Assembly (NCBI RefSeq): GCF_021568905.1
Contig: NZ_JAKGSB010000004.1
Location: 186,001-250,000 of the forward strand
Source: Zavarzinia marina
GTDB taxonomy: Bacteria > Pseudomonadota > Alphaproteobacteria > Zavarziniales > Zavarziniaceae
DNA: 64,000 nt
Reading direction: 5' to 3'
Shown here: positions 11,482 through 19,532 of the stretch, one piece after another
How positions within the stretch are numbered: the first letter of the stretch is position 1
Layout of the letters: every line of letters starts with the position of its first letter
Notes under the pieces: generated by a model
Seen by the model: the letters and a program-made list of their open reading frames with translations, nothing else
Told to the model about the DNA's origin: nothing
Database searches by the model: none
Program-made: the position numbers and the translations under genes

Positions 11482-12480
11482 TTAAGAAGGACTGGACTCC
11501 CCCTTCGACATCACATCGTCACCACAGGACATGGCAAACAGGGGCGCCTCCCGGCCGCAAGTCGCCTGAGACGACCACCAGCGGTCAACCTCGGCGACCA
11601 GGAGACGGGCGAAATGGAGTGGCGGCACCTCCTCGCCTTCATGGCGGCGGAGTTCCGCCCGCCAGATCGGCCCTTTCGGGTGCAGGAAGGCGACGACCGC
11701 GACCGAACCGTCCCAACCTTGATGAAGGCCGAGTGCCGCGATCTCGCCAAAGTTCCGGCGCATCGCGATCGCGCCACTGTCAGCGATACCGCAGAGGATC
11801 AACTCGTCGCCGACGATGGCGGCTATCCAGATTTCCGTGAACATTTCGACTGAAACTCGTCGATAGCCAACACAGGCGGCCGTCACCTCCTCGTGGTCGA
11901 CGAGACCGTATCGGATCAGCAAGTCGGTCGCCTCGTGATCGACCGACGGCAGGTCGCCGACAGGCCGGCGCAGGCAGAGAGCCCAGACCATGGCGAGAAC
12001 TGCCCCCGCGCCGAGCGGCACCATGACCTCCGGCTCGCCATATCCGGCGATCACAGTCAATGTCCCGCCGATCACCGTGACCGTAGCCAGACAGAAAACC
12101 GAGATCCTGAGCCAGCCCCCCGGTCCGAAACGAAACGGGTAGAAAGACCGGCCGGGCCGATAGGGGGTGATGCGCGTCTGCCGCCGCCCGTAGGCCTCTC
12201 CCACCTTGAAACCAGACAGGAGACCGAGAAGGAGGGCGAGGCCGAGCAGAAACGCGCCCGCCGCGGACGATTCCAGAAACCAGGATACGGGCACCGCGAC
12301 GAGAATGCCGAGACTCATGCCGATCATGGTGCCGGCCGCGATTGCGGCCGCGCCCACCACCGGATTCCATCGCCGATGCCAAAGAGGTAGCGTCGAAAGC
12401 CCGCGCTTCGGCCGTCCGTCCGTCGACCTCGCGGTCGTTCCATCACGGCCCCGGAACAGGATGCGAGACAGCCCCCTCAT
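11482..12480 (-). CDS. Hypothetical membrane protein, YRPGRSF paralog B, coupled to LysR
   Basis: 332 residues, not recognised. A basic N-terminus (1-35) is followed by two helices (~40-62 and ~72-92), the shared YRPGRSF motif (~105-111), two more helices (~124-145 and ~152-168), and a soluble domain with NFGEIAALGL and an aromatic segment EVDRWW near the end. Its ATG overlaps the stop codon of the LysR gene (ATGA, 12477-12480), so translation is probably coupled and the regulator may respond to, or share regulation with, this membrane protein. It resembles the downstream gene at 10550-11434 in architecture, though identity looks low. Confidence 0.7.
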   Translation of the reverse strand: MRGLSRILFRGRDGTTARSTDGRPKRGLSTLPLWHRRWNPVVGAAAIAAGTMIGMSLGILVAVPVSWFLESSAAGAFLLGLALLLGLLSGFKVGEAYGRRQTRITPYRPGRSFYPFRFGPGGWLRISVFCLATVTVIGGTLTVIAGYGEPEVMVPLGAGAVLAMVWALCLRRPVGDLPSVDHEATDLLIRYGLVDHEEVTAACVGYRRVSVEMFTEIWIAAIVGDELILCGIADSGAIAMRRNFGEIAALGLHQGWDGSVAVVAFLHPKGPIWRAELRRHEGEEVPPLHFARLLVAEVDRWWSSQATCGREAPLFAMSCGDDVMSKGESSPS

Positions 12481-13418
12481 GCCTGCCTCTCTTCCAGCGG
12501 GGATGCCCCCACCGCCACCGTCAGCCAGCGGCGCAGGCGGGTGAGGTCGCGGGTTTCCCAGAGGGCGGCGGGGGCGCGCAGGCGGTAGGTGCCGAGGCGG
12601 ATGTCGCTGTCGAGCACTTCGACCAGGCGGCCGGCGGCGATGTCGTCGCCGACCAGCAGGCTGTTGGCAAGCGCGATGCCCTGGCCCTGCAGGGCCGCCT
12701 CGATCGCCGCGTCGGCGTGCCAGAGACGGGGACCGTGGAGCGGTGGCACGGCATCGAGCCCGGCCAGCGCCAGCCAGCGGCGCCATTGCTCGCGGCTGTC
12801 CTCGTGGATCAGGGGGGCGGCGGCGATGTCGGCGGCCGCGCGGAAGGGACCGCGGCGCTCGACGAAAAGCGGGCTCGCCACCGGAAAGAAGCGGGGCGCC
12901 AGCAGGTCGCATTGGGCGACGCCCGGGGCGGGCGCCGGATCGAAGGCGATTTCGGCGTCCGCCTCGCCGGCACGGAAATCGGGGCTGCGGTCGGCGGGCT
13001 GGAGCGCGATGTCGACTCCGGGCAGGGCCGCCTCCAGCCCCGACAGGCGGCGCGCCAGCCAGCGGACGGCAAGCCCCGGCACGCAGAAGATGCGCATCTC
13101 CCCCGCCCCGCCGCGCGGCGACAGTTCCTCCGTCGCCTCGGCGATCAGGTCGAGGGCGCGGGCGATCCGCTCGTGATAGCGCCGCCCCTCCGGGGTCAGC
13201 ACGAGGCCGCGCCCGTCGCGCGCGACGAGGCGCACCCCGGCCCAGGATTCGAGGTTCGCGAGGTGGCGGCTGATCACCGTATGGCTGACGTTCAGATCCT
13301 CCCCCGCGCGGCGCGTACCGCCCAGACGGGCGACCGCCTCGAAGGCGCGAAGGGCGACGAGCGGCGGCAGGCGACGGGACAAGGGACACCCCAGGGACAA
13401 GGCAGGTGCGACGACCAT
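12477..13418 (-). CDS. LysR family regulator (GcvA/AmpR-like)
   Basis: About 313 residues from the ATG at 13418. The winged HTH begins with PLVALRAFEAVARLGG and the recognition segment VSHTVISRHLANLE, characteristic of the GcvA/AmpR branch. The C-terminal ~220 residues form a LysR substrate-binding domain with LIHED and GQGIALANSLL segments. Family members typically start just before the PPL segment, so the true start may be a later TTG near 13379. Its 3' end overlaps the next gene by 4 nt. The gene diverges from the beta-glucan synthase, making that enzyme or the membrane protein its likely targets. Confidence 0.85.
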   Translation of the reverse strand: MVVAPALSLGCPLSRRLPPLVALRAFEAVARLGGTRRAGEDLNVSHTVISRHLANLESWAGVRLVARDGRGLVLTPEGRRYHERIARALDLIAEATEELSPRGGAGEMRIFCVPGLAVRWLARRLSGLEAALPGVDIALQPADRSPDFRAGEADAEIAFDPAPAPGVAQCDLLAPRFFPVASPLFVERRGPFRAAADIAAAPLIHEDSREQWRRWLALAGLDAVPPLHGPRLWHADAAIEAALQGQGIALANSLLVGDDIAAGRLVEVLDSDIRLGTYRLRAPAALWETRDLTRLRRWLTVAVGASPLEERQA

Positions 13419-13550
13419 GAAGCGCGGGCCGCCGCCATGCAACGCCCACATGCCGCCCCCGCGATCCTTTCCGCAAGTGGATGAAATAACTGGGGAACCG
13501 GATGGTGCGATGCGGCGTTGTTGCCTTGACGTTGCCTCGGATCAGATGAA

Positions 13551-16268
13551 ATGCGCAAACTCGCCGGTAATCTCGCCGTCCTTCTTCTGCTGCTTGCCGC
13601 CCATGCCGGGCTCTGGGCCTGGCTCAACCGTCCGGTTCAGATGGCCGATTGGGATGGCAGCATCCAGGCGCTGTCCTTCGATCCGCACCGTGCCGACCAG
13701 AATCCCAACGACGGCGAACACCCGACGGCCGCGCAGATCGACGAGGATCTGGCGACGGTCGCGACCGTCGCGCAGGGCGTGCGCACCTATTCCACCCTGA
13801 ACGGCCAGGACGCCATTCCGGCGCTGGCCGAGCGCCACGGCCTGACCGTGATCGCCGGCGCCTGGCTGGACACCCGGGAGGAAAGCAACGCGGCCGAAAT
13901 CGCCGGCCTGATCCGGATCGCCAACGCCAATGCCAACGTGAAGCGCCTGATGGTCGGCAACGAGGCGGTGCTGCGCGGCGACCTGACGGTTCCCGAACTG
14001 ATCCGCCTGATCAAGGACGTGAAGCGCCAGACCGACCAGCCGGTCTCGACCGCCGAGCCGTGGCACGTCTGGCTCGACCATCCGGAACTGGTCGAATCCG
14101 TCGACTATATCGCCGTCCACCTGCTGCCCTATTGGGAAGGCGTGCCGGCCGATCAGGCGATCGACTATGTCGCGCGGCGCTACGACCAGATTGCCCGGGC
14201 CTATCCCGACAAGAAGATCCTGATCTCGGAAATCGGCTGGCCGTCCGACGGCCGGATGCGCGACGGCGCGGTGCCGAGCCTCGACAACGAGGCCGACTTC
14301 ATCCGCGATTTCCTGACCCTGGCGCGTGCGCGCGGCTGGGACTATTCCCTGATGGAAGCCTTCGACCAGCCCTGGAAGCGCCAGATCGAGGGCGCGGTCG
14401 GTGCCTATTGGGGCCTGTTCGATGCCGACCGCACGGCCAAGTTCCCCCTGTCGGGCGCCGTCACCGCCGTCCGCGATTGGCGGTCGCTCGCGGCGATCGC
14501 CGCCGCCATCGCGCTGCTGCCGCTGCTGTTCTTCCTGCGCCGCGCCGACAATCTGAAACCCCAGGGCAGGATCCTGTTCTCGGGGCTCATCATGGTCGCG
14601 GCCAATGTCGCGGTCTGGACCGTCCACTACGGCACCACGCAATATCTGAACGGGCCGATGATCGCGGTCTGGAGCCTGCTTTCCCTCGGCATGGTGTTCC
14701 TGATGTCGCTGATCCTGGCGGAAGGCTTCGAATTGTCGGAAGGCCTGTTCGCGCGGCGCCTGACGCGGCATTTCACGCCCTATCGCCTGCCCGCCTCGGC
14801 CGAGCGCGAGCGCGCCTGGCCCATGGTCTCGCTGCATCTGCCGATCTGCAACGAGCCGGCCGAGATGGTGCGCCGCACCCTCGACAGTCTGGCCCGGCTC
14901 GACTACCCGCATCTCGAGGTCCTGGTGATCGACAACAACACCAAGGACCCGGCGATCTGGCAGCCGGTGCAGGATTATTGCCGCCAGCTCGGCGCCCGCT
15001 TCCGCTTCTTCCATCTCGACCTCTGCAAGGGCTTCAAGGCCGGCGCGCTGAATTTCGCCGCCCAGCAGACCGCGCCCGAAGCGCGGGTGATCGGCGTCAT
15101 CGACAGCGACTATCTGGTCGAGCCGGACTGGCTGAAATCCACCATTCCCTATTTCGACGACGCCAAGGTCGGCTTCGTGCAGGCCCCCCAGGACCACTAC
15201 GACTGGACCGAGAGCGCCTTCAAGGAAATGATCAACTGGGAATACGCCGGCTTCTTCCACATCGGCATGTCGATCAGGAACGAGCGCGACGCCATCATCC
15301 AGCACGGCACCATGACCCTGATCCGCCGCGACGCCATGGCCGGGGTCGGCAATTGGTCGACCTGGACCATCTGCGAGGATGCGGAGATGGGCCTGAAGCT
15401 GATGCAGTCGGGCTGGAAGTCGGTCTATATCAACCATCCCTTCGGCCGCGGCCTGACGCCCGACAGTTTCGCCGCCTATCGCGGCCAGCGCTTCCGCTGG
15501 GCCTTCGGCGCCATGCAGATCCTGCGCGGGCGCGCCGCCTGGCTGAACCCGTTCCGCCGCACCGGCCTCTCGCTCGGCCAGAAGTATCACTTCATCATGG
15601 GCTGGGCGCCCTGGCTGGCGGACGCCATGAATCTTCTGTTCACGCTGGCGGGTCTCGCCTGGACCGTCGGCCTTCTGCTGCTGCCCGATTATTTCGCCTT
15701 CCCGGTCACCCTGTTCCTGGTGCCGACGCTGGCGGTGTTCGGCTTCAAGCTGGCCTATACGTTCTCGCTCTACGCGAAGCGCGTACCGTGCACGCCGGTG
15801 CAGGCGGCGGGTGCCGCGCTGGCCGGGCTGGCGCTCACCTATACGGTCGGCAAGGCCTTCGCCATCGGCCTCGTCAAGAAGCAGAAGCCCTTCCTGCGCA
15901 CGCCCAAATGCGCCGACAAGCCGGCCGCCATCCAGGGCCTGCTGAACGCCAGGGAAGAGACCACCCTGATGCTGCTGCTCTGGGCCGCCGCCGCCGCCGT
16001 CGCCGTGGTCTACGGCGAGCGTGATCGCGAATCCTGGGTCTGGGTCGCGGTGATGCTGGTGCAGTCCCTGCCCTATCTGGCCGCCCTGGTGCTGTCCATG
16101 GCTTCCGCCCTGCCCGGCCTGCGCCGCCTGCCGTTCAGCGGCACCGCGCCCCTGTCGTCCGGTGGCCCCAGGCAGGGTGCGCATGCCGCCGGCCAGCTCC
16201 CCGCCGGTCCTCTCCAGGCCAGTCAGATCCAGGCCAACCACATGCAGTCGCCGGGCGCCGGGCATTGA
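13551..16268 (+). CDS. Beta-glucan synthase: GH17-like domain fused to GT2 glycosyltransferase (NdvB/NdvC-like)
   Basis: 905 residues. An N-terminal membrane anchor (~5-25) leads into a periplasmic GH17-like domain (~35-305) in which both expected catalytic acids are present: Glu138 in MVGNEA and Glu227 in ISEIGWPS. Two or three helices (~312-390) precede a cytosolic family 2 glycosyltransferase with DSD (518-520), a CEDAEMG acceptor-site motif and QRFRW. More helices follow, and a His/Gln-rich tail. GT2 would polymerise UDP-glucose into beta-glucan and thread it out; the GH17 domain would branch, cyclise or trim it. In Bradyrhizobium the corresponding functions are split between NdvB and NdvC for cyclic beta-1,3/1,6-glucan. 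The product linkage here is inferred. GtrA starts on its last base. Confidence 0.85.
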   Translation: MRKLAGNLAVLLLLLAAHAGLWAWLNRPVQMADWDGSIQALSFDPHRADQNPNDGEHPTAAQIDEDLATVATVAQGVRTYSTLNGQDAIPALAERHGLTVIAGAWLDTREESNAAEIAGLIRIANANANVKRLMVGNEAVLRGDLTVPELIRLIKDVKRQTDQPVSTAEPWHVWLDHPELVESVDYIAVHLLPYWEGVPADQAIDYVARRYDQIARAYPDKKILISEIGWPSDGRMRDGAVPSLDNEADFIRDFLTLARARGWDYSLMEAFDQPWKRQIEGAVGAYWGLFDADRTAKFPLSGAVTAVRDWRSLAAIAAAIALLPLLFFLRRADNLKPQGRILFSGLIMVAANVAVWTVHYGTTQYLNGPMIAVWSLLSLGMVFLMSLILAEGFELSEGLFARRLTRHFTPYRLPASAERERAWPMVSLHLPICNEPAEMVRRTLDSLARLDYPHLEVLVIDNNTKDPAIWQPVQDYCRQLGARFRFFHLDLCKGFKAGALNFAAQQTAPEARVIGVIDSDYLVEPDWLKSTIPYFDDAKVGFVQAPQDHYDWTESAFKEMINWEYAGFFHIGMSIRNERDAIIQHGTMTLIRRDAMAGVGNWSTWTICEDAEMGLKLMQSGWKSVYINHPFGRGLTPDSFAAYRGQRFRWAFGAMQILRGRAAWLNPFRRTGLSLGQKYHFIMGWAPWLADAMNLLFTLAGLAWTVGLLLLPDYFAFPVTLFLVPTLAVFGFKLAYTFSLYAKRVPCTPVQAAGAALAGLALTYTVGKAFAIGLVKKQKPFLRTPKCADKPAAIQGLLNAREETTLMLLLWAAAAAVAVVYGERDRESWVWVAVMLVQSLPYLAALVLSMASALPGLRRLPFSGTAPLSSGGPRQGAHAAGQLPAGPLQASQIQANHMQSPGAGH

Positions 16269-16711
16269 TGGGCGGCGACGGGCATCCGCCGCCTCCCTCG
16301 CCGCTCGCGCGGCTGCTGAATGCTCCCTTCCTGCGCTTCGCGCTGATCGGGGTGCTGGGTGCCGGGGTCGACATCGCCGCGCTCTATGCCGCGCTCTACG
16401 CGCTCGGCCTCGGGCTCTATGTCGGGCGGGTGTTCTCCTTCGCCGCCGCCGTCACCTTCACCTTCTTCGCCAATCGCGCCTTCACCTTCCGGCACGCTTC
16501 GCGCATGCCCTTGCTGAGGCAATGGGCGCTGTTCGCGAGCAGCCAATTGCTCGGCCTCGGTGCCAATTACGCGGTCTATGCCGCCCTGGTGACATGGTGG
16601 GATCTGGCGCGCGGCATTCCGGCGATCGCCGTGATCGCCGGGTCCCTGACCGGTCTCGTCTTCAATTATTCTGCCGCGAGCCGGCTGGTGTTCCGCCGGC
16701 CGCGCGCCTGA
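16268..16711 (+). CDS. GtrA family membrane protein
   Basis: 147 residues with four helices (roughly 22-42, 48-68, 85-104, 115-135), matching GtrA. The family signatures are RFALIGVLGAGVD at the start, FANRAFTFR after helix 2 and FNYSAASRLVFR at the end. GtrA proteins are thought to flip lipid-linked sugars across the inner membrane. The ATG overlaps the beta-glucan synthase stop codon by one base (TGATG), so translation is coupled. This suggests it moves a lipid-linked sugar or otherwise assists glucan decoration or export. It converges with the first WS/DGAT gene. Confidence 0.88.
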   Translation: MGGDGHPPPPSPLARLLNAPFLRFALIGVLGAGVDIAALYAALYALGLGLYVGRVFSFAAAVTFTFFANRAFTFRHASRMPLLRQWALFASSQLLGLGANYAVYAALVTWWDLARGIPAIAVIAGSLTGLVFNYSAASRLVFRRPRA

Positions 16712-16717
16712 GCACAC

Positions 16718-18250
16718 TCACCCGACGGCGGATTCGACCGGCGGGATCGCCCCGGCGCGGCGGCGCGGCGCCTTCTTGCGCGGGGCCGGCGCCTCGGCCT
16801 TTTCCGCCGCCGGCGCATCCTTGCCCGGCACCGCGTCGGCGGCGGCCGCGAGATCGTTCAGCGAGTCTTCGAGGAAACGGACGAAATCGGCGACGTCCGG
16901 CATGATCCGGCGGCACGAACTGACGCCGATGGAGATCGTGCCGTCATAGCTGAAGATGGCGAGCAACAGGCCCATGCCGTCGAAGATCGGGCCGAAGCCG
17001 ATCTGCGCCTCCAACCGGTTGCCGAGGGTATAGAGCGGGATCTGCGGCCCCGGCACGTTCGTGATCACGCAGTTGAAGATGGGGCTGTGGGATTCCGCCG
17101 CCTTCATGCGGGTGTAGAGCCGCGTCGCCATGGCGGCCGTGGCCGAGGGCACGAAGCGGGTGTAATCGGTCAGGGCGCGGGCGCCGACGGCATTGATGAA
17201 GCTCTTCGACTTCTCGGTGTTGCGGCGGACGGCGGCGAGGCGTTCCATCGGATCGGCGATGTCGGTCGCGATCGAGACCAGCATGCCCGAGACCTGATTG
17301 CCGAGGGCCCCCTTCTCCTTCTCGTTCCGGACCGAGATCGGGGCGAAAGCGATGAGCGACCGGTCGGGCAGCGAATGATGCTTGTCCAGCCAGCGCCGCA
17401 GGGCGCCGGCGCAGACCGCCAGCACGACGTCGTTCACCGTGGCGCCTTCGACCGCCTTGCGGATGCGCTTCACCGTATCCAGGGGGAAGATCGCGCCGTC
17501 CCACACGCGCTGGGCCGAGACCGGCACGTTCAGCGGCGTGCGCGGCGCCTGGAAGGGAGCCGGCGGCGGATCCTCGCGGTATTTCGGCAGGCGCGCGACC
17601 GAGCCGATCAGGCTGGAGGCCAGCCGCGCGCCGCCTTCGAACAGCTTGAAGGGCGCGACCGCCGTGGTCAGGGCCGTGCGCACCAGGAGTTCGCCCGCGC
17701 CCGGCAGGCGCTCCGGCACCCAGCGCTTGCGCGGCGGTTCGATGTTGCGGCCTTCGGGTGTGAGGTCGGTCAGGGCGAAGAGGATGTCGTTCGACGAGAC
17801 GCCGTCGATCGCCGCGTGGTGGATCTTCACCAGGGTGGCGAAACTGCCCTTCGGCAGCCAGTCGACATTGTCCAGCCCCTCGATCACATAGAATTCCCAG
17901 AGCGGCCGGCTGCGGTCCAGGGGGTAGGAGGCGATGCGCGCCGCCATGGTCATCAGCGAATGCCAATCCCCCGGGGACGGCACCGCGACATGGCGCAGGT
18001 GATAGTCGAGATCGAAATCCGGATCCTCGATCCAGTAGGCCCGATCGAGGGACATCGGGACTTCCACCAGACGCTGGCGGAAGGTGCGCGCCAGATGCAG
18101 GCGATCCTCGATACCCTGGCGGATCCGCTCGAAGGAGAAGGGTTCGGCGGCGGTGGAAGGGTCGTAGAAACAGAGGCCGGCGATATGCATCGGTGAATTG
18201 GGCGTCTCGAGCGCCAGGAAACCCTGGTCCAGACCGCTCAACTGCTGCAT
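16718..18250 (-). CDS. Wax ester synthase / diacylglycerol acyltransferase (WS/DGAT), copy 1
   Basis: 510 residues. The acyltransferase motif HHAAIDG (His144, His145, Asp149, Gly150) is intact; the second His is the catalytic base. PLWEFYVIEGL precedes it, and the family PLY and NVPGP segments (ITNVPGPQIPLY) occur in the C-terminal half. The enzyme joins acyl-CoA to a fatty alcohol or diacylglycerol, giving wax ester or triacylglycerol for storage at the membrane/lipid-body interface. The last ~45 residues form an Ala/Pro/Lys/Arg-rich tail absent from copy 2 (28511-29929), possibly for binding lipid droplets or nucleic acid. GGAGGACG precedes the start. Confidence 0.9.
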   Translation of the reverse strand: MQQLSGLDQGFLALETPNSPMHIAGLCFYDPSTAAEPFSFERIRQGIEDRLHLARTFRQRLVEVPMSLDRAYWIEDPDFDLDYHLRHVAVPSPGDWHSLMTMAARIASYPLDRSRPLWEFYVIEGLDNVDWLPKGSFATLVKIHHAAIDGVSSNDILFALTDLTPEGRNIEPPRKRWVPERLPGAGELLVRTALTTAVAPFKLFEGGARLASSLIGSVARLPKYREDPPPAPFQAPRTPLNVPVSAQRVWDGAIFPLDTVKRIRKAVEGATVNDVVLAVCAGALRRWLDKHHSLPDRSLIAFAPISVRNEKEKGALGNQVSGMLVSIATDIADPMERLAAVRRNTEKSKSFINAVGARALTDYTRFVPSATAAMATRLYTRMKAAESHSPIFNCVITNVPGPQIPLYTLGNRLEAQIGFGPIFDGMGLLLAIFSYDGTISIGVSSCRRIMPDVADFVRFLEDSLNDLAAAADAVPGKDAPAAEKAEAPAPRKKAPRRRAGAIPPVESAVG

Positions 18251-18431: not shown

Positions 18432-19532
18432 TCAGGGCGCCGGCTTCAGGGTCGGCAGAACCGCGGGCAGGGCCGCGTCGGCGGCCGAGGCGACCTCGAC
18501 GACTCCGGCTTCGGCTTCGGCGGCGGCCACGACCGGGCTTTCGATCCCGGGTTTCATCGCCACATAGCGGACCGGCGACCGATCGACCGAAATCGCGGGC
18601 GCGGGCGCGGGCGCGGCCGCGACGGCGCTCGACGGTTTCACCGAGGGGCGCGGCACCGCCGGCACCGAGCCGACGGCGGTCGAGGCGGGACGCGCCGCCA
18701 CATCCGCCTGCTCGGTCTGGCGGCGATGGGGCATTTCGGCCGCGGCGGCCGGTTTCGGATCGCCGTCGGAATAGACCGGGCGCCCCATCATCACGGGCTT
18801 GCCCGCCCGGATCTGCAGGGTCGCCGCAGTGTGCTGCGCCGTGGCGAGCTGGGCGTCCAGGGTGCCCGGCACCGCTTCGCCGGCCCGTGCGACGGCGTGC
18901 AGCGTGCCGCTCGCCGGCGCCGGCACGGGCGCGGCGCGATCGGCGGCGCGCGTGTCGGCCGATGCTTCGGCGCGTTCGTCGCGGCGGCCCTCGTCGCGGC
19001 GGAGATGCAGGCGCCCGCCGGCGGCCACGGCCGCGACCTCGATCGCGCGATCGTCGCGGTCGCCGTAGATGAAGCCGTAGAGCGGATAGACACTGGAGCC
19101 GTAGTCGTCGATCGGCGGATACCAGACCCGGACCGAGGACCAGTCGTTGCGGGCCGAAACGTCGATCACCGAGATGCCGCGGTCGATACGGCCCTTGCGG
19201 GCACTGCGCCGCGACTGCCAATTGGCATGATCGATGATGATTTCGCGCGGGCCGACGATCTCGCGGACGACCGCGACATGGCCGCGGCGCATGGCATGGG
19301 CGCGCCGGAACACCATGACCGCGCCGGCCTGCGGACGGCCGCCGGTCTCATAGCCGGCGGGCCGCGCCTGGCCCCACCAGGTCCAGGCATCGCCCTTGAT
19401 CTGGACGCCGGAAATCTGGCGCGCGTAGGGCACGCATTCGATGGCCTGCGCGGGGGATTCGAGGGCGACACACAGGACGAGGGCAAGGGCAGCGCAAGTG
19501 CCGCGCCCGATCAAACCAGCCCGAATCACCAT
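18432..19532 (-). CDS. Secreted CHAP-domain amidase/endopeptidase with disordered C-terminal tail
   Basis: 366 residues. An N-terminal signal peptide (1-~30, ending SPAQA) is followed by a CHAP domain (~31-150) with nucleophile Cys33 (ECVPYAR), His85 (RRGHVAVV) and a polar third residue in DHANW (~102-106). CHAP enzymes cleave peptidoglycan cross-bridges or stem peptides. The second half (~160-366) is low-complexity Ala/Pro/Val-rich sequence with no fold apparent; it could act as a wall-binding or spacer region. AGGGGGC precedes the ATG. It is likely periplasmic and involved in wall remodelling. The similar N-terminal half of many alphaproteobacterial proteins supports the call; substrate bond not determinable. 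Confidence 0.85.
   Translation of the reverse strand: MVIRAGLIGRGTCAALALVLCVALESPAQAIECVPYARQISGVQIKGDAWTWWGQARPAGYETGGRPQAGAVMVFRRAHAMRRGHVAVVREIVGPREIIIDHANWQSRRSARKGRIDRGISVIDVSARNDWSSVRVWYPPIDDYGSSVYPLYGFIYGDRDDRAIEVAAVAAGGRLHLRRDEGRRDERAEASADTRAADRAAPVPAPASGTLHAVARAGEAVPGTLDAQLATAQHTAATLQIRAGKPVMMGRPVYSDGDPKPAAAAEMPHRRQTEQADVAARPASTAVGSVPAVPRPSVKPSSAVAAAPAPAPAISVDRSPVRYVAMKPGIESPVVAAAEAEAGVVEVASAADAALPAVLPTLKPAP

Follow-up and report, generated by a model that had tools for sequence, protein, structure and literature searches.

In a 64,000-nucleotide stretch of Zavarzinia marina DNA (hereafter the window; contig NZ_JAKGSB010000004.1, positions 186,001 to 250,000), two consecutive genes encode a GH17–GT2 membrane protein and a small protein of the GtrA family. 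The explanation that we favor as a whole, at a probability of about 0.72, is that the first gene encodes a glucan synthase and remodeling enzyme of the NdvB/'Orphan' type and that the second encodes a GtrA displaced from a three-component system. The synthase half of this observation is already known, since the architecture is common and a model for it has been published, and the synthase itself is an ordinary representative of a family already described. The GtrA arrangement is real and genus-specific and constitutes the unusual part. The original prediction, made from the sequence alone, had noted the fusion, its two catalytic acids and the adjoining gtrA, and had read them as a glucan-branching or glucan-cyclizing enzyme coupled to lipid-linked sugar decoration; our analysis confirms the observation and supports the interpretation in part. 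The gene pair comprises the following features.

13551..16268, plus strand: GH17–GT2 membrane glucan synthase/remodeling enzyme of the NdvB/'Orphan' type, 905 residues (ATG start, open reading frame, Pfam, alignment, predicted structure)
13560..13616, plus strand: first transmembrane helix, residues 4–22 (hydropathy script; helix 2–25 in the predicted structure)
13653..14459, plus strand: GH17 domain, residues 35–303 (alignment to RmBgt17A 4wtp; Pfam PF00332)
13962..13964, plus strand: E138, expected acid/base, GAG in VGNEA (pairs with the VGSEV glutamate of RmBgt17A; role from PMC10237404)
14229..14231, plus strand: E227, expected nucleophile, GAA in SEIGWPS (alignment to RmBgt17A structures)
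14823..15530, plus strand: GT2 catalytic domain, about residues 425–660, with DNN, DSD, CED and QRFRW motifs (Pfam, alignment)
15891..15908, plus strand: FLRTPK, residues 781–786, counterpart of the BcsA gating-loop motif (sequence; the counterpart FFRTPK is named in PMC10237404)
16268..16711, plus strand: GtrA (PF04138), 147 residues (ATG at 16268; alternative TTG start at 16265)

The synthase combines an intact GH17 domain with a BcsA-like GT2 domain

The open reading frame, the codons and the Pfam domains confirm a GH17–GT2 fusion in which both glutamates (138 and 227) are intact. Pfam, hydropathy and the predicted structure give the order of a hydrophobic helix, the GH17 domain, membrane helices, a BcsA-like GT2 domain and further helices; via the first helix, the GH17 domain would be placed in the periplasm. 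These are the hallmarks of NdvB/'Orphan' proteins: an N-terminal helix ahead of a GH17 domain that bears the VGxE and ExGWP glutamates, and a BcsA-like GT2 domain with D, DxD, ED and QxxRW between membrane helices. PilZ is absent from the Pfam matches of the synthase, as is typical of the group, and NCBIfam gave no match above cut-off. The AlphaFold2 model, computed from 37 sequences, has a mean predicted local distance difference test score of 87.2, with most of the GH17 part at 90 or above and a low-confidence tail (residues 865–905). Of 385 genomes of the class, 75 contain a match to the synthase at E ≤ 1e-60. A scan of other genomes returned at least 591 stretches encoding a relative of the synthase, not all necessarily GH17–GT2 proteins, and 80 were retained. 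Two alignments were used: A1, of 12 rows, and A2, of 37 rows, whose 36 relatives derive from 41 of the 80 loci tried, five with an internal stop being excluded.

The GH17 domain matches Glyco_hydro_17 (PF00332) at 34.5 bits against a cut-off of 28.2, and E138 and E227 are invariant in both A1 and A2. The residue paired with E227 is a Glu in 4wtp but is replaced by Ala in 4wtr, an entry titled 'active-site mutant'. Among solved structures, the best sequence relative of residues 51–297 is RmBgt17A, a glucanosyltransferase from Rhizomucor miehei (E 2e-30). Structural alignments were realignments of structures from Foldseek's list and cover the families listed there only. Within this set, the predicted GH17 domain superposes on 4wtp (266 residues) with a Z score of 33.1 and a root-mean-square deviation of 2.0 Å over 255 residues, and on the Formosa endo-laminarinase 6fcg with a Z score of 29.1 (2.5 Å over 267 residues), with plant endo-glucanases behind both at about 24. 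A predicted structure lacking the catalytic cleft had been named as the outcome that would count against the enzymatic idea; on checking, the domain superposes on RmBgt17A. Given that both glutamates are kept and that RmBgt17A has the closest fold, we infer a well-formed GH17 domain that lies nearest to a transferase and is probably active. The view of the domain as a degenerate GH17 relic was rejected on the invariance of both glutamates and the good predicted fold.

The GH17 family uses a retaining mechanism and includes hydrolases, and the laminarinase 6fcg also matches the model, so that the domain might simply hydrolyze the chain, trimming or releasing it as laminarinases do, instead of acting as a transglycosylase. 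We regard this as improbable, because the nearest GH17 protein by both sequence and structure is the transferase RmBgt17A and because the GH17 domains Glt1, Glt3 and Glt7, taken from proteins with the GH17–GT2 architecture, act as transglycosylases (PMC11005184; PMC10237404). Branching or cyclization by the GH17 domain, as originally proposed, fits the sequence and the predicted structure, and would be its presumed activity; the idea is not new. PMC10237404 describes the same architecture in pseudomonads as a likely cyclic β-glucan synthase, in which GT2 builds the chain and the periplasmic GH17 domain cleaves and cyclizes it, and the activity of the cloned GH17 domains Glt1, Glt3, Glt7 and Glt20 backs that model (PMC11005184). 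With synthesis and transglycosylation thus modeled for NdvB/'Orphan', this part of the proposal was already in print.

Three GT2 Pfam models match the synthase at 79–92 bits (cut-offs 23–27), and the motif residues D461–N463, D518, D520, E609, D610, Q646, R647, R649 and W650 are invariant in the 37 rows of A2; Table 3 of PMC10237404 gives the roles of these motifs. BcsA is the best solved sequence relative of residues 377–705, and the synthase model aligns with the two best BcsA chains at Z scores of 36.9 and 34.4.

A second GH17 membrane protein is encoded in the same genome (G000). This NdvC-like paralogue of 570 residues (L154:10208-11917, minus strand; GH17 35.6 bits, helices by hydropathy) gave a match in the synthase search at G000:C11:432778-433872, on a contig other than that of the synthase. 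Both glutamate motifs are present in its sequence, and Pfam returned no GT2 match. Across the 75 genomes, a paralogue match lies 57–192 nucleotides from the synthase match on the same strand in 16, as picked by eye. The paralogue gene of G000 lies near a gene that clusters with LysR regulators and near two acyl-CoA ligase genes. NdvC is a GH17-type membrane protein, and a 1999 paper cited in PMC4070871, by its title, reportedly describes an NdvC mutant that makes a cyclic (1→3)-linked decaglucoside. By analogy, the window synthase would make a 1,3-chain and close or extend it, and 1,6-type links would come from the paralogue.

GtrA is linked to the synthase within a single genus

The first base of the gtrA ATG, at 16268, is also the final base of the synthase TGA (TGATG). 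Its product matches PF04138 at 75 bits (cut-off 26.1) over model positions 1–117 of 117 and is the sole PF04138 protein of the genome; phmmer found no relative of it in the PDB. The claim that gtrA starts on the stop codon holds for the window but does not extend to the genus: the window, L003 and L004 allow the overlap, whereas the first usable gtrA start identified by script lies 34 and 49 nucleotides past the first base of the stop in L005 and L006, respectively.

We gathered 122 synthase loci, 117 of them with at least 450 nucleotides downstream; L076 and L008 are apparently one record counted twice, other duplicates are possible, and L002, a sixth same-genus locus, ends too early. GtrA lies downstream of the synthase in five of the 117, all from the window's genus and including the window itself; not one of the 112 remaining loci, which lie outside the genus, carries it. 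Coordinates compared by eye in 78 genomes, 48 of which contain a GtrA according to a PF04138 search, gave the same picture: GtrA adjoins the synthase only in G000, G001, G003, G004 and G005, and G204 and G372 carry a GtrA about 8–9 kb from it. Linkage as a general property of the family was therefore rejected. Within the genus, the order synthase then GtrA recurs in G001, G003, G004 and G005 (synthase 80–85% and GtrA 61–72% identical to those of the window), which argues that the pairing is not due to chance.

The flanks of the pair vary. A LysR homologue stands beside the synthase in L002, L159, L160 and L161, that is, in four of the five other same-genus genomes, and was not found beside it in L157 (G001). 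Downstream, L157 and L160 have a wax-ester-synthase gene; none was found in L159, nor within 2.1 kb downstream in L161. Because the pair persists despite these changes, selection for the synthase–GtrA link is suggested. The linkage probably goes back to one event in one genus.

Many related GtrA proteins occur with gtrB and/or a multi-helix protein

GtrA is a proposed flippase for which direct evidence is still lacking (PMC11127046; PMC7389260), and R95 and N132 are essential residues of GtcA (PMC7389260). We read the context of GtrA in 20 regions from other genomes, mostly genomes with both a synthase and a GT-C protein of the type encoded at L155 (discussed below). In 14 of these 20 regions, which owing to this choice are not a random sample, GtrA adjoins F2 (gtrB) and/or F3. 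The loci whose context was read were also the source of the F2, F3 and GtrA profiles, and neighboring genes were called with a simple GC-frame script that missed some GtrA genes (for example in L159) which the profiles found. F2 is a GT2 protein, mostly of 310–360 residues; the member examined has two helices at its C-terminus. F3, of about 510–590 residues, is a multi-helix protein; four of five members had no Pfam match and one a sub-threshold match to PMT_2, two members had no NCBIfam match, and for one member phmmer found no PDB relative. The pattern WD..NYHWY..Y..L..R...D is conserved near the N-terminus of seven aligned F3 members. One example of F3 is encoded at L239:5561-7204 (minus strand), and relatives beside gtrA and/or gtrB occur in L222, L224–L229, L233, L234, L237 and L238. 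It is possible that F3 is a GT-C family without prior description; with F3 as the putative transferase, the F2/F3 regions look like gtrA–gtrB–GT-C operons.

A tree of 55 GtrA sequences, from which eight duplicate loci of 63 rows had been dropped, places the five synthase-linked GtrAs in one clade (support 99 in the Shimodaira–Hasegawa-like approximate likelihood ratio test). Another branch, also with a support of 99, divides the tree into 25 GtrAs on one side and 30 on the other; the 30 consist of the five synthase-linked sequences, all 20 found with gtrB/F3 and five others. The window's genome also contains an F2-type gtrB, on contig C9 (L242/L067), whose product is 55–61% identical to the operon GtrBs and scores 463 bits with the F2 hidden Markov model. 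It matches AglJ (NCBIfam: N-glycosyltransferase) over residues 11–301 at 195 bits, below the cut-off of 325, and the dolichyl-phosphate hexose transferase model at 71 bits, below the cut-off of 375; from its sequence, it is a putative polyprenyl-phosphate glycosyltransferase. Considering the position of GtrA in the tree and the gtrB on another contig, the likeliest reading of the window GtrA is a flippase that belongs to a lipid-linked hexose system and was displaced to its place behind the glucan synthase. Flippase and lipid-charging enzyme thus both appear to be present, unlinked. No F2 or F3 was found near the pair, either in the window or in the 14.6–20 kb around it in four same-genus genomes, and the three-component genes are not in one locus in these genomes.

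Several points weigh against our explanation. Six of the 20 GtrA regions carry neither F2 nor F3 by profile, and for five members of the set of 30 the sequence covered contains no gtrB/F3. The order inside that set is poorly resolved, with 27 of the tree's 52 inner branches open, and the nearest GtrA outside the genus is far away (path 1.71). A search of the window's genome with the F3 profile, covering 152 kb plus short loci, gave no match, nor was there an F3 match among the called neighbors of the C9 gtrB; the three-component set is therefore incomplete in the part searched. On the synthase side, the glucan linkage is not readable from the GT2 sequence, a point on which PMC10237404 agrees. 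Finally, GtrA could actually serve the operon at L155, with a DPMS/ArnC-like GT2, an ArnT-like GT-C and a PAP2 protein.

The acceptor served by GtrA

In this operon (L155:4251-8554; G000:C12, about 332–336.5 kb), whose GT2/GT-C/PAP2 part lies near 334–336.5 kb, an ArnC/DPMS-like GT2 for which no helices are predicted is encoded together with an ArnT-like GT-C, a PAP2 phosphatase and an acyl-CoA dehydrogenase. The run has the look of a set for lipid A sugar transfer, and it may resemble rhizobial RgtE/RgtF/LpxE. A second PMT_2-type membrane glycosyltransferase is encoded at L172:7128-8696 (minus strand; G000:C9, about 455 kb), adjoining an M17 aminopeptidase gene.

We give about even odds that GtrA serves an acceptor other than the glucan (lipid A, O-antigen or another surface glycan) and is no more than a passenger on the transcript of the synthase, the candidate final transferase being the ArnT-like GT-C of L155 or another GT-C, for which the second PMT_2 protein on C9 offers a further candidate. 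GtrA occurs in 61 of 100 genomes with an L155-type GT-C compared with 81 of 285 without (Fisher test, 1.7e-8, uncorrected for ancestry; among the 142 genomes with GtrA, two fall under the Pfam cut-off). The ArnC-like GT2 and the ArnT-like GT-C of L155 score 113 bits (cut-off 529) and 80 bits (cut-off 567), respectively, and no flippase is among the five genes annotated at the operon. Elsewhere, however, GtrA keeps company with F2/F3 in the 14 regions described above, the 20 regions yielded no ArnT-like GT-C homologue, and the F2-type gtrB lies on a contig other than that of the L155 operon. As the neighborhoods of related GtrAs point to F2/F3, the L155 operon was dropped as first choice of partner and is kept as a rival.

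That GtrA flips a polyprenyl-phosphate hexose which is then added to the synthase's own glucan, making the pair part of one pathway for a periplasmic glucan decorated from a lipid donor, we consider unlikely; the remaining weight goes to neither acceptor or to both. The linkage is kept in all five same-genus loci of sufficient length although their flanks differ, a gtrB is present in a genome that has only this one GtrA, and among the 100 genomes with an L155-type GT-C, GtrA is found in 28 of 31 with a synthase against 33 of 69 without, again uncorrected for ancestry. Against this stand the 29 of 75 synthase genomes without a GtrA match (some of them incomplete), the association of related GtrAs outside the genus with gtrB and F3, none having been found beside a synthase, and the failure to identify a glucan-specific periplasmic transferase. 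The originally proposed lipid-linked decoration of the glucan has its footing in the flippase family and the gtrB of the genome, and is weakened by the 112 loci outside the genus, none of which carries GtrA, and by the separate gene set to which related GtrAs belong; decoration by a GtrA-dependent sugar is possible but unproven. Among the papers that a literature search listed, none reported, by title or abstract opening, lipid-linked-sugar decoration for this glucan class, and no paper was found linking GtrA with a glucan synthase and a glycosyltransferase.

A specific version of the decoration pathway can be formulated for the genus: the C9 GtrB would load a hexose on polyprenyl phosphate, GtrA would flip it next to the synthase, and a periplasmic enzyme would add it to the emerging β-glucan. 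We hold this to be quite doubtful. In its boldest form, which strikes us as very improbable, the adding enzyme would be the GH17 domain of the synthase itself or the NdvC-like protein; were the donor β-linked, a retaining GH17 enzyme could in principle take glucose from it, and no GT-C would be needed.

Proposed mechanism and significance

In the explanation that we favor, the displaced-flippase one, the cytoplasmic GT2 domain would polymerize glucose from UDP-glucose, probably to a β-1,3-glucan, and the chain would pass via the membrane helices to the periplasmic GH17 domain. There, E138 and E227 would cut and re-join it, resulting in elongation, branching or ring closure, and the NdvC-like GH17 membrane protein may add 1,6-type linkages. 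gtrA would be the flippase gene of a gtrA, gtrB and GT-C-like set that was split from gtrB in this genus and now stands with the glucan synthase gene, with which it may be co-transcribed.

The synthase is a well-conserved addition to a family whose members are presumed both to produce and to remodel their own glucan. If the GtrA link is functional, it would join self-contained periplasmic glucan synthesis with lipid-linked-sugar decoration, two subjects that are usually treated separately.

Neighboring genes

The pair is flanked in the window by the following annotated genes.

12477..13451, minus strand: LysR-type regulator, divergent from the synthase, GcvA-like below the curated cut-off (homology search)
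16718-18250, minus strand: wax ester synthase/diacylglycerol acyltransferase (TIGR02946, 466 bits, above cut-off), directly downstream and convergent with gtrA
18432-19532, minus strand: CHAP-domain protein (Pfam) with a long Ala/Pro-rich tail, as seen by eye

Comparison with known systems

The Pseudomonas NdvB/'Orphan' proteins (PMC10237404; Glt1, Glt3) have the same order of transmembrane, GH17, transmembrane, GT2 and transmembrane segments as the window synthase, with the same or matching motifs VGNE, ExGWPS, DNN, DSD, CED, QRFRW and FxRTPK and likewise no PilZ; a Pseudomonas relative, L146, is 45% identical to it. The two differ in their surroundings: among annotated genes, the window synthase is flanked by the LysR regulator, GtrA and the wax ester synthase, and not by dapE as in Pseudomonas. 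RmBgt17A (4wtp, 4wtr), a β-1,3-glucanosyltransferase, shares its fold and both catalytic glutamates with the GH17 domain of the synthase, to which it is 29–30% identical, but is a single-domain fungal enzyme.

In Bradyrhizobium, ndvB, ndvD and ndvC lie together (PMC4070871). This NdvB/NdvC system (ndvBDC), with which the GH17 domain Glt20 (PMC11005184) is grouped here, pairs a synthase with a separate GH17-type membrane partner, as is the case in the window's genome. In Z. marina, the NdvC-like gene is on a contig other than that of the synthase, and the likeness to Bradyrhizobium is one of description, not of direct sequence comparison. The GtrA–GtrB–GT-C systems described in PMC7389260 and PMC11127046 have in common with the window's genome a PF04138 protein and a gtrB; the window gtrA, however, stands behind a glucan synthase instead of beside gtrB or a GT-C gene.

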